In this document: piece by piece, positions 27,533 through 30,828 of the stretch
Numbering within the stretch: position 1 is the stretch's first letter
Layout: every line of letters starts with the position of its first letter
Origin: Massilia sp. YIM B02443
Lineage (GTDB): Bacteria; Pseudomonadota; Gammaproteobacteria; Burkholderiales; Burkholderiaceae_D
Reading direction: 5' to 3'
Assembly: GCF_030411955.1 (NCBI RefSeq)
Contig: NZ_JASNRA010000022.1
Coordinates: 23,573-87,572 of the forward strand
DNA length: 64,000 bases
Made by a program: the position numbers and the translations under genes
Notes under the pieces: model-generated
Database searches by the model: none
Seen by the model: only the letters and a program-made list of their open reading frames with translations
What the model was told of the DNA's origin: nothing

Positions 27533-27546
27533 TCTTTGTGAGGCAA

Positions 27547-29412
27547 ATGCAAATGACCCCAACCCGCCCCTTTTCGATGTCGACCCCGGCCACCCTGATC
27601 ACAGGCGCCCTGCTGTCGCTCGCATTCGGGGCGGCCAGCTACTTCGCCACCTCCGAGGCGATCGAGAGCGACGCGCGCGCCCGCTTCCGCGGCATGGCGC
27701 GCGCCGCCCAATACACCATCGACGCTCGCATCAAGAGCTACAGCGACGTGTTGCGCGGCGTCGCCGGCCTGTTCCGCGCCAATCCCGAGACCAGCGCCGA
27801 CCAGTTCCGCCAGTATGTGGCCCAGCTCGACATCACGCGCAATTTTTCCGGCATCGAGGTCATCAACTATGCGCGCGCGGTACGCGCCGAGCACTTGCCG
27901 GCACTCAACGAAGAATTGCGAGCGCGCCTGGCGCGCCACGGCGTGCAGCGCTTCCAGCCGCTGCAGGCGTTGCCCGAGCGCGACACCTATACCGTTCTGG
28001 TCTTCATCGAACCGCTGCCGCCGCACGCGCTCGACAAGCTGGGCCTGGACCTGGAAGCGCGCGGCGCGGTGCGCCGGGCGCTGGCCACGGCGCGCGACAA
28101 CGGCACCCTGAGCGCGTCCGGCACCCGCATCGCGCTCGAAGCCGGACCCAACCAGAGCGGCCTGGCGCTGCGCCTGCCGGTGTACCGCAGCGACCTGCCC
28201 ACCGCCAGCGTCGACCAGCGGCGCCTGGCCTATGCCGGCTCGGCCGGCATAGGCTTCGGCGTCACGCCGCTGGTGAGCGGCGTGCTGGACGAATTCCCGG
28301 TCAAGGGTGCGCGCCTGATCCTGACCGAGCTCACCGCCACCGCGCCCGAGCCGGACGAAGCGCCGCCGCGCGCCACCCTGTACGACAGCCTGGCCACCGT
28401 CGAGCGCCCCACGCCGGCATTGCCGCCGGACGACGGCAGCGTGTTCGCGGCCAGCCTGCCGATCGAGTTCAACCAGCGCCTGTGGCGCGCCGACTTCACC
28501 ATCCCCAAGTCGGCGCTGTACACCCGCTTCGACATGTACTACCCGTGGCTGGCGGCGTTCGCGGTGGGCATGAGCACCGCCCTGCTGTATGCGCTGTTCC
28601 AGACCCTGGCGTCGTCGCGCCGCAGCGCCCTGCGCATGGCCGAAGAGATGACGCGCGAAGTGCGCGCCAGCCAGGCCAAGCTGCAGGCCAGCCACGAGAA
28701 ACTGCGCATGCTGGCCGCGCACGCCGAGCAGATCAAGGAAGGCGAAAGAAAGCGCATCGCGCGCGAAATCCACGACGACCTGGCGCAGAACCTGCTGGCA
28801 TTGAAGATCGAGGCCGAGTTCCTGGCCAACCGCACCCGCGGCGGCCAGCGCCGCCTGCATGCGCGCGCCGAGGCTACGGTGCGCCAGATCGAAGTCACCA
28901 TCCGCAGCGTGCGCCAGATCATCAACGACCTGCGCCCGAACGTGCTCGACCTGGGCTTGAGTGCGGCGGTGGACTGGCAGGTGGCCGACTTCGCGCGCCG
29001 CACCGGCATCGCCTGCGAGCTGGTGGATGACGGCGACGACCACCGCATCGACGACCACAGCGCCACCGCCTTCTTCCGCATCCTGCAGGAGTCGCTCAAC
29101 AACGTGGCGCGCCACGCACGGGCGACCAAGGTGCGCATCGACCTGCACCAGCATGCCGGCATGCTGACCATGACCATTCGCGACAACGGCGTCGGCATGC
29201 AGCCGGGCAGTCGCAACCGCCACGGCTCGTTCGGCCTGGTGGGCATCGAAGAGCGCGTCGCCATTCTGGGCGGCGCGTTTTCGGTGAGCAGCGGACCAGA
29301 ATCCGGCACCACGATCGTGGTGACGATACCCGTCGGCGGTGAGGCCGACAGGGACGCGGCGCCCGACGGCGCCGGTACGCGCGGCCGCGATCTGAATCGG
29401 GCCGCCGCTTGA
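27547..29412 (+). CDS. CHASE-domain sensor histidine kinase (HisKA_3 type)
   Basis: A 621-residue membrane sensor. One membrane helix at ~16-34 and another at ~332-353 bracket a periplasmic CHASE-type domain (FRGMARAAQYTIDARI, FRQYVAQLDITRNFSGIEVINYA). The cytoplasmic part has a coiled coil, then the HisKA_3 motif REIHDDLAQNLLALK with phospho-His409, and a GHKL ATPase with ILQESLNNVARHA and DNGVGM. NarL/UhpB-like kinases of this type pass phosphate to LuxR-type regulators; none is encoded nearby, so the partner is elsewhere. GAGG precedes the starts at 27547 and 27553; a GTG at 27538 is less likely. Direct repeats lie upstream. Confidence 0.88.
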   Translation: MQMTPTRPFSMSTPATLITGALLSLAFGAASYFATSEAIESDARARFRGMARAAQYTIDARIKSYSDVLRGVAGLFRANPETSADQFRQYVAQLDITRNFSGIEVINYARAVRAEHLPALNEELRARLARHGVQRFQPLQALPERDTYTVLVFIEPLPPHALDKLGLDLEARGAVRRALATARDNGTLSASGTRIALEAGPNQSGLALRLPVYRSDLPTASVDQRRLAYAGSAGIGFGVTPLVSGVLDEFPVKGARLILTELTATAPEPDEAPPRATLYDSLATVERPTPALPPDDGSVFAASLPIEFNQRLWRADFTIPKSALYTRFDMYYPWLAAFAVGMSTALLYALFQTLASSRRSALRMAEEMTREVRASQAKLQASHEKLRMLAAHAEQIKEGERKRIAREIHDDLAQNLLALKIEAEFLANRTRGGQRRLHARAEATVRQIEVTIRSVRQIINDLRPNVLDLGLSAAVDWQVADFARRTGIACELVDDGDDHRIDDHSATAFFRILQESLNNVARHARATKVRIDLHQHAGMLTMTIRDNGVGMQPGSRNRHGSFGLVGIEERVAILGGAFSVSSGPESGTTIVVTIPVGGEADRDAAPDGAGTRGRDLNRAAA

Positions 29413-29652
29413 AGCGGGAGGTGTGCGGAGCGATGTGTTGCCGAAAGGATTCATCCATTTCCATGCTTGCGCTATCGCAACAGTTCAAGTGACTGCCCAC
29501 AGGAAAATGTTTATCACTGTCATCAGTCAAACACCGAACCGTCAGCCCATTCGCAAGCAGGAGGCCGCCACCAGAAAACACCCGCAGCACCGCCGTACCA
29601 AAACCAGGGATAAAACAGCAGCACCATCACAATTCAAAATGAGGTGAATAAA

Positions 29653-30510
29653 ATGTCGAACAAAAGCGAATTTGCAGTCTTCGAGGCGCTCGACCTGGCG
29701 CCGATCAAAATGAAACTGATGCACGTGGAGTCCGGCGAAGGCTGGTCGGAACGCCGTGCCAATGCTGTGGAAGCCGAGTATCGCCGCTTCCTGTTCCTGA
29801 CCAAGGCATACCCGGACGAAATGGTGTCGCCGACGCTCGACGTCGACATGTTCTGGCACTACCACATCCTCGACACCATGAAGTACGCCCGCGACTGCCA
29901 GGCCCTGTTCGGGGAATTCCTGCACCACTATCCGTACGTCGGTATGGGCGAAGGCGCCGATGAAGGCGAACGCACCAAGGCCGGCGAGCGCATGCGCGAC
30001 ATGTACGAAGCCCAGTTCGGCGCCGTCGTGCGCGGCGATGCGGCCTGGTGCGGAGCTCCGAGCAAGGAAGCCACCGAAGCGGCCTGGTGCGGCGCTCCGA
30101 GCAAGGAGGCGACCGATGCCGCATGGTGCGGCGCTCCGAGCAAGCAAACCACCGACGCGGCATGGTGCGGTGCTCCGGGCAAACAAATCACCGATGCCGC
30201 CTGGTGCGGCGCCCCGGGCAAGCAGGCGACCGATGCCGCCTGGTGCGGCGCTCCGGGCAAGCAGGCGCGCAAAGCCACCGACACCGCGTGGTGCGGCGCT
30301 CCTAGCAAGCAGGTCAAGGGCAGCGCCAGCGCGTGGTGCGGCGCCCCCAGCAAGAAACTGGCCGCCAGCGTCAAGACCGCCTGGTGCGGCGCTCCGGGCA
30401 AGTCCCTGAGCGCCGGTAACGATGTCGCGTGGTGCGGCGCGCCGTCGGTCGTGGCCAGCAGCGCGGTCGCCTGGTGCGGCGCGCCGGGCAAGTCGCTGCA
30501 AGCAGCCTGA
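29653..30510 (+). CDS. GRDP-like domain protein with eleven AWCGAP repeats
   Basis: A 285-residue protein in two parts. Residues ~8-98 match the glycine-rich-domain-protein-like (GRDP) module: EAEYRRFLFLTKAYPDE, DVDMFWHYHILDT with WHYH at 68-71, and FLHHYPY. From residue 131 to near the end, the hexapeptide AWCGAP occurs eleven times, mostly every 13 residues (AWCGAPSKEATDA pattern), each with exactly one Cys and one Trp; the spacers are Ser/Gly-Lys followed by Gln, Ala, Thr. No signal peptide or membrane segment. GAGGTG at 29641 supports ATG 29653. The array could bind metal, form disulfides or be multiple cores of a modified peptide behind a leader; no modifying enzyme is adjacent. Followed by a strong terminator. 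Function unknown. Confidence 0.85.
   Translation: MSNKSEFAVFEALDLAPIKMKLMHVESGEGWSERRANAVEAEYRRFLFLTKAYPDEMVSPTLDVDMFWHYHILDTMKYARDCQALFGEFLHHYPYVGMGEGADEGERTKAGERMRDMYEAQFGAVVRGDAAWCGAPSKEATEAAWCGAPSKEATDAAWCGAPSKQTTDAAWCGAPGKQITDAAWCGAPGKQATDAAWCGAPGKQARKATDTAWCGAPSKQVKGSASAWCGAPSKKLAASVKTAWCGAPGKSLSAGNDVAWCGAPSVVASSAVAWCGAPGKSLQAA
30043..30486 (+). repeat. In-frame tandem repeats encoding AWCGAP units
   Basis: Eleven copies of an 18-base core encoding AWCGAP are spread over 444 bases, the first five at an exact 39-base period and the later ones at 39 to 48 bases. Synonymous changes vary (GGC/GGA, CCG/CCC), so the peptide, not only the DNA, appears to be kept. Confidence 0.9.
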
Positions 30511-30524
30511 TTGGTTCCTCCCCG

Positions 30525-30567
30525 CGCAGCCGGCAGGTAGCAACCGCTACCTGCCGGCTGCGGCTTT
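30525..30567 (+). terminator. Strong terminator after the AWCGAP gene
   Basis: A perfect 16-bp stem, 30525-30540 with 30547-30562, a 6-base loop, then GCTTTTC. It lies 15 bases after the stop and points to an abundant transcript. Confidence 0.88.
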
Positions 30568-30588: not shown

Positions 30589-30828
30589 TTACTTGCGTGG
30601 ACGCTTCGGCGCGGCGGCAGCGCCGCCGGCCGGCGCGCTGGCCTTGAACAGCGTGCGCGCATCATCGTGCGCGCGGTCGATCGTGCGCATGGCGCGGTTG
30701 TCGTCGTGGGCGACGAAGTACTCCTTGTCCTGGGCGTCGACCACGATCTTGATCGCCGCCTTTTCGGTGACGCCGTACTTTTCGACGATCAGGGTGGTGA
30801 CTTCGTCCAGGTATTCTTCGTAGGTCAT
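30589..30828 (-). CDS. Small protein of unknown function
   Basis: A 79-residue protein. Residues 1-55 look folded (YEEYLDEVTTLIVEKYGVTEKAAIKIVVDAQ), the rest is an Ala/Pro/Lys tail (APAGGAAAAPKRPRK). Not recognised. AAGGAG precedes the ATG at good distance. Its start overlaps the end of the upstream SDR gene in ATGA, so the two are coupled. It ends close to the AWCGAP terminator from the other side. Confidence 0.7.
   Translation of the reverse strand: MTYEEYLDEVTTLIVEKYGVTEKAAIKIVVDAQDKEYFVAHDDNRAMRTIDRAHDDARTLFKASAPAGGAAAAPKRPRK

Follow-up and report, generated by a model that had tools for sequence, protein, structure and literature searches.

Why should a bacterial protein carry one and the same hexapeptide eleven times over, and what might the copies be for? 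The question is raised by a gene of Massilia sp. YIM B02443, referred to here as the array gene, which lies in a stretch of 64,000 nucleotides (the window) whose features are collected in Table 1. The sequence-only reading of this DNA had described a GRDP-like N-terminal domain followed by eleven AWCGAP motifs, with synonymous variation under a constant peptide, and on these points our analysis agrees with it. The domain is recognized by Pfam (PF07173, residues 40–81; 28.5 bits against a cut-off of 22.7, E 2.8e-6), the match spanning profile positions 98–143 of 143 only. The motifs are in-frame units that begin 39 nt apart five times and then 48, 45, 48, 48 and 42 nt apart, corresponding to 13 residues five times and then 16, 15, 16, 16 and 14. 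The hexapeptide is the same in all 11, although 38.5% of the comparable synonymous sites differ (row L049), and the AWCGAP pattern at the DNA level has 13 matches in the 5.7-Mb genome, namely the 11 units of the window and two elsewhere. Several near-identical cores separated by spacers thus follow a leader, the layout of a multi-core precursor. Neither a signal peptide nor a fixed cleavage site is visible by eye in the protein, and it does not match NCBIfam TIGR04222, giving a sub-threshold match to MAD4 only, far below the cut-off. A defence system was considered and rejected, PADLOC matching neither the array gene nor the kinase gene before it.

Table 1. Features of the array locus, in window coordinates
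Feature	Position	Strand	Basis
CHASE-HisKA_3-HATPase_c histidine kinase, directly upstream of the array gene	27538..29412	+	Pfam
Inverted repeat TTGCG-N4-CGCAA, candidate operator	29467..29480		Alignment of 10 intergenic regions
Conserved element AGGAMAATNNNTATMRCTG, 5' of the array gene	29501..29519	+	Alignment of 10 intergenic regions
Array gene: GRDP-like domain and eleven AWCGAP units, 285 aa	29653..30510	+	ORF and Pfam
GRDP-like domain, residues 1–125, predicted six helices	29653..30027	+	Pfam, alignment, structure model
Eleven AWCGAP units with drifting linkers	30043..30486	+	Sequence, synonymous comparison
Terminator-like hairpin, 17-bp stem, then GGCTTTTC	30525..30562	+	Sequence, folding
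Gene for a 79-aa protein	30589..30828	-	No Pfam or NCBIfam match

The array gene starts with an ATG, has AGGTG 5' of it, and lies 240 nt beyond the end of the kinase gene. In the interval, the inverted repeat is conserved and reads TTGAG-N4-CTCAA in relatives, the window differing on both arms. The conserved element was searched for in 13 genomes and gave 8 sites, all but one of which (7) fall at the array locus; 6 of the genomes have none. A strong terminator had been noted behind the gene, and the hairpin found there bears this out (17-bp stem, -50.3 kcal/mol, z -6.6, with none of 200 shuffles equally stable); it is missing from the list of a simple terminator scan. Downstream of the array gene, both on the opposite strand, lie the gene for the 79-aa protein, which is a conserved neighbour in several genera, and an NAD epimerase gene.

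A search with the whole protein matched 39 of 61 genomes and 36 of the 37 of the same genus; in the one exception (G015) the array gene may sit in an assembly gap, since the kinase gene is cut off at the contig end. The 18 named loci all belong to Massilia or Telluria. With the domain alone, 122 of the 294 genomes of the family gave matches, in 13 of 44 genera, some of them being remote GRDP proteins that have no arrays (L098, L125, L135–L138). Further afield the domain is rare: at E 1e-12 the order yielded matches in 13 of 399 genomes, and at E 1e-3 the phylum in 29 of 398, and these mostly carry other tails. Viral contigs and a phage record of 595 kb also encode GRDP proteins, with Gly/Cys/His-rich tails (L191, L192, L193).

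L001–L138 and the window supplied 116 distinct GRDP-like ORFs. Across arrays the unit motif is A-[W/F/Y/H]-[C/S]-x-x-x. In the 87 arrays with five or more units, the six core residues differ in 5.7% of pairwise comparisons within an array, synonymous codons at identical residues differ in 40.4% against the 54.4% expected from codon usage, and the median synonymous divergence reaches 81% of the expected level. The contrast between 5.7% amino acid difference and 40.4% synonymous difference indicates that the unit peptide is held constant by selection and that the units are more than recent duplicates, although a few arrays (L127) did expand lately. When redundancy is removed, 59 arrays have at least six units, and within these arrays identity is 0.97, 0.99, 0.96, 0.85 and 0.87 at positions 0 to +4, falling to 0.69, 0.58 and then about 0.4 in the linkers, figures obtained with a search pattern that demanded Ala at -1 and the aromatic-C/S class. 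The conserved unit is 6–7 residues long, the linkers drift and the spacing of units is irregular (7–25 residues). Of the 839 units that depart from their array's consensus at one residue at most, 4 do so at the aromatic residue and one at the C/S residue, against 41 at +3 and 49 at +4. The motif is not strictly Ala-led: Ala precedes 887 of 962 aromatic-C/S pairs, and Ser is found instead in L105, L106 and L108.

Between proteins the picture is different, the dominant cores differing at 55% of positions. Given a 97-domain GRDP tree in which many forks are unresolved, C/S must have changed at least 3 times, the aromatic residue at least 28 times and the hexamer at least 67 times. Because units are uniform within arrays and yet the motif changes across this tree, whole arrays must switch together. 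Slippage without function would explain why arrays range from 4 to 24 units, why L127 and L051, with 96% of their GRDP domain in common, have 24 and 10 units, and why some arrays are newly expanded, such as L127 with its synonymous difference of only 0.14. As a full explanation it is nevertheless ruled out by the constancy of the protein amid synonymous divergence in the 87 arrays, and we regard functionless slippage as barely credible. The proposal that the repeats are the functional part of the protein is therefore upheld, the protein remaining constant while codons drift, with arrays in 97 relatives. It had been added that loss of the repeats from homologues, or free drift of the peptide between close relatives, would be the mark of slippage; the arrays are indeed kept in homologues, but the peptide does change between species, with all units changing together. 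Even if no peptide is released, these arrays remain a clean natural example of units that selection keeps alike inside one protein and that are freely rewritten from species to species.

The function preferred by the sequence-only reading was metal binding or disulfide chemistry, and this did not survive the comparison. A metal-binding or redox array of Cys/Trp units would be in keeping with the single Cys per unit in the window's genome and with the placing of 408 of the 422 tail Cys residues of the 59 arrays inside the motif. The position is not reserved for Cys, however: all 97 arrays are dominated there by C or S (one or the other was demanded by the search pattern), with Cys in 68 and Ser in 29, and His, Phe or Tyr may stand for Trp. 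Since Ser replaces Cys in 29 of the 97 arrays, metal binding or disulfide formation is not the common function of the arrays, and we consider it very improbable as an explanation of them.

Of greater interest is the gene next door. It had been stated correctly that no modifying enzyme adjoins the array gene, but the CHASE kinase directly upstream was overlooked. The window's kinase has a full-length or contig-end match in all 33 same-genus genomes searched, and, among loci with long flanks, a kinase matching it lies within 2.5 kb of all 69 array ORFs of three or more units (6 divergent). CHASE was confirmed by Pfam in all ten kinases scanned, four of which are of a divergent type with an extra PAS_3. 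The linkage occurs in two settings and two orientations. In Oxalobacteraceae much of it is one inherited synteny block, since glnS is also present in 55 of the 61 loci of the glnS-linked genera; at the g47, g54 and g41 loci, glnS and the epimerase gene are found in none of nine and the kinase in eight of nine. Twelve GRDP ORFs were set aside as having fewer than three units by the search pattern, and eight of these have a kinase nearby; the remaining four (L098, L108, L124, L125) do not, L108 being array-like (SYCG units) with no kinase in its 7.5 kb. Eleven genomes of array-free genera gave no full-length kinase match (five transmitter-only, six none at E 1e-60), a weak control, given that the match in array-bearing G117 and G121 was likewise confined to the transmitter.

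A different kind of CHASE gene, CHASE-(PAS/GAF)-GGDEF-EAL, precedes the array gene on Variovorax and Cupriavidus plasmids, where the units are AWCSLEAGKP or AYCAR. Three such plasmids (0.69, 1.24 and 1.64 Mb) have one CHASE match each, which is the gene before the array, compared with four CHASE matches in the 5.7 Mb of the window's genome. As the neighbour may be a histidine kinase or a GGDEF-EAL protein, CHASE is the constant and the output varies. Kinase and array have been duplicated together as pairs in L044 and L046, and six g64 loci have two different arrays behind a single kinase, so that one receptor would face two peptides. The array is real, selected and family-wide, and has a CHASE receptor as partner. 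The small molecules that CHASE domains are reported to bind include peptides (PMC5845226).

Because the array protein is usually encoded beside a receptor-type sensor gene, in the window as in relatives, it is a candidate peptide signal. The explanation that we rank first, and put forward tentatively, is a two-gene signalling module in which a multi-copy peptide precursor is paired with a CHASE receptor. The GRDP domain would carry a tail of many identical A-aromatic-[Cys/Ser]-x-x-x copies, the copies being the product. These would be released or displayed and recognized, outside the cytoplasm, by the CHASE domain of the neighbouring gene's product, a receptor that presumably acts through its histidine kinase in Oxalobacteraceae and through c-di-GMP enzymes in Variovorax and Cupriavidus. 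Such a mechanism would involve export and release of the peptide and its binding by CHASE, and perhaps modification at the Cys/Ser or aromatic residue. It is favoured by the constancy of units within arrays, above all at the aromatic and Cys/Ser residues; by the kinase linkage, which holds at all 69 array ORFs with long flanks and at all but one of the loci outside the glnS setting; by the single CHASE gene of each of the three plasmids and the duplication of kinase and array as pairs; and by the company of other GRDP genes, which resembles that of biosynthetic loci (short Cys peptides; methyltransferase and TauD genes). No exporter, protease or modifying enzyme was found among the genes linked to arrays. 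Nor did we detect co-variation of motif and CHASE beyond relatedness, in samples of 44 and 48 of the 116 ORFs as defined by filters for unit number, gap and kinase motif: a partial Mantel test on 44 pairs, allowing for GRDP and transmitter distances, gave r 0.06 (p 0.08), and in 22 near pairs sharing no member, of which 12 differ in the aromatic-C/S pair, the ratio of CHASE to transmitter divergence was no higher (1.97 versus 2.10, p 0.45). Further points against the module are the two arrays behind one kinase in g64, the inherited synteny behind much of the linkage, the lack of a kinase at L108, and the absence of MNIO and YcaO from some array-bearing genomes (see below).

That export and processing genes are not linked to the arrays would be expected if nothing were released at all and the units docked a cytoplasmic protein, the array counting or titrating this partner in the kinase pathway. 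Uniform units are to be expected if each binds the same partner, and linkers that look disordered, with their irregular spacing of 7–25 residues, would suit docking motifs. Such a partner would, however, have to change along with at least 28 aromatic switches, no second protein is linked, and the CHASE domain that is linked by itself points outside the cell. We therefore place docking, as a somewhat unlikely alternative, behind the precursor read by CHASE.

Alternatively, each A-aromatic-[C/S] could form a short beta strand in register on identical neighbours, in a solenoid or a functional amyloid, and self-stacking of this kind would impose selection for sameness within a protein and not between species, explaining uniformity with no partner at all. 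The full-length AlphaFold2 model (pLDDT 59.7, used as a hint only) places three-residue strands on several AWC units, for example at 157–159, 170–172, 183–185 and 196–198, but the pLDDT of these strands is about 45–60, and perfect repeats tend to draw models of this type. The irregular unit spacing and the Gly and Pro of many cores also speak against stacking, which in addition leaves the CHASE neighbour unexplained; it is less probable than docking.

The GRDP domain and the company that it keeps elsewhere bear on whether the arrays belong to a peptide natural product with no signalling role. Plant GRDPs have Gly-rich tails; the window protein shares their domain (PF07173, GRDP-like) and has the hexapeptide array where they have Gly. 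To our knowledge the domain has no known activity. Its model (six helices, pLDDT 88.5) has no relative in the PDB by sequence and only 27 weak matches by Foldseek, the best at E 3.3, and in the absence of a PDB match the fold lends no support to an enzyme function. The residues D65, W68, H69, H71, D74, C82, H91 and H92 are invariant; they include a WHxH...HH cluster and could form a metal or active site. GRDP genes that encode no tail adjoin short Cys ORFs. In Stanieria (L196, 3959–5482) a 43-aa ORF with two [A/G]FCFL motifs is followed by a methyltransferase gene, and in Halomonas (L200, 3737–4399) and a genome of the order Burkholderiales (L216, 3939–4626) there are 42-aa peptides, 44% identical, that end in HCQGxGxW. 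Other neighbours of L200 are genes for an AHL synthase and LuxR and one with a weak, sub-threshold likeness to MatE. Other GRDP genes encode tails with C-x4-C or C-x3/4-C, in Azospirillum (L197, 3932–8324), G886 (L215, 2–4466) and G390 (L220, 2–4184), and behind these genes lie those for a SAM methyltransferase, a TauD-family protein and an ABC ATPase, with UvrA_DNA-bind in L197 only and a pentapeptide-repeat gene in L220. These three clusters look like an antibiotic cluster with self-resistance.

Taken with the anatomy of a leader and uniform cores, with the Cys/Ser interchange, which fits a nucleophile or a heterocycle, and with the WHxH...HH cluster, this company would suit a multi-core RiPP precursor of an antibiotic or metallophore. 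The modifying enzymes would be encoded elsewhere, or the GRDP domain would do the work in the manner of self-modifying borosins, with no more than a regulatory part for the CHASE gene. The sequence-only reading had doubted a RiPP for want of an adjacent enzyme; the observation stands, both in the window (kinase, 79-aa protein and NAD epimerase) and in relatives, but the RiPP-like surroundings of other GRDP genes had been missed. Our search for RiPP enzymes covered MNIO and YcaO. MNIO (PF05114, DUF692) has no match in the window's genome (G000) and is present in 21 of 30 array-bearing genomes, and YcaO in 28 of 30, G004 and G029 being without it; absence from nine and two of these genomes, respectively, rules out both as required enzymes. 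In G001, G006, G026, G032 and others an MNIO gene lies roughly 55–85 kb from the array locus, which is probably plain synteny, given the nine array-bearing genomes that have no MNIO. As array genes have no adjoining enzyme and neither MNIO nor YcaO is in every array-bearing genome, a RiPP with no signalling function seems improbable, and we rank it below self-stacking.

A precursor read by CHASE would have partial parallels among known systems. In fungi, dikaritin precursors (e.g. that of ustiloxin) and other KEX2-processed repeat proteins (KEPs) are secreted and cut at KEX2 sites, and alpha-type pheromone precursors likewise contain many near-identical short cores. The array protein resembles KEPs and dikaritin precursors in its many identical or nearly identical cores per precursor, but differs from the fungal proteins in being bacterial, in its GRDP domain and CHASE neighbour, and in having no visible signal peptide or fixed cleavage site. 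Quorum sensing of the agr type, found in Gram-positive bacteria, relies on a single core and a dedicated protease/exporter, AgrB. It shares with the array locus a short peptide that varies around a constant Cys or Ser and an adjacent sensor kinase gene, whereas the array locus has many cores, no linked AgrB-like protease/exporter and no co-variation of sensor and peptide that we could find. In borosins a methyltransferase is fused to its own core peptides; the array protein likewise combines a folded domain with its own cores, the domain being GRDP in place of a methyltransferase. TIGR04222 proteins have been proposed as MNIO substrates (PMC12452194), and in L154 a GRDP domain is fused to a TIGR04222 membrane domain. 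Buf_EGKCG/oxazolin and TIGR04222 substrates share Cys repeats with the arrays, but the MNIO enzyme adjoins their precursors (PMC12452194) and is found neither at the array locus nor in the window's genome.

It is tempting to speculate further, on a scale that we regard as doubtful, on a peptide language of Gram-negative bacteria, in which each GRDP protein would supply 4 to 24 species-specific copies, modified at the invariant aromatic-Cys/Ser pair and read by CHASE into histidine kinase signalling or c-di-GMP turnover, with GRDP as the shared biosynthetic element of a wider, as yet undescribed peptide family that includes separate short precursors. Our searches of the open-licence literature found no description of bacterial GRDP arrays. 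If the precursor reading is correct, soil bacteria of Gram-negative type would have a peptide signal extending from genus to family, its ligand encoded beside its receptor, CHASE ligands and receptors could be matched directly, and the GRDP domain, known mostly from plants, would gain its first testable role. As a minor observation, the C-termini of many array proteins of Massilia often end in -AA (LQAA, LLAA, AHAA), possibly a degradation tag.
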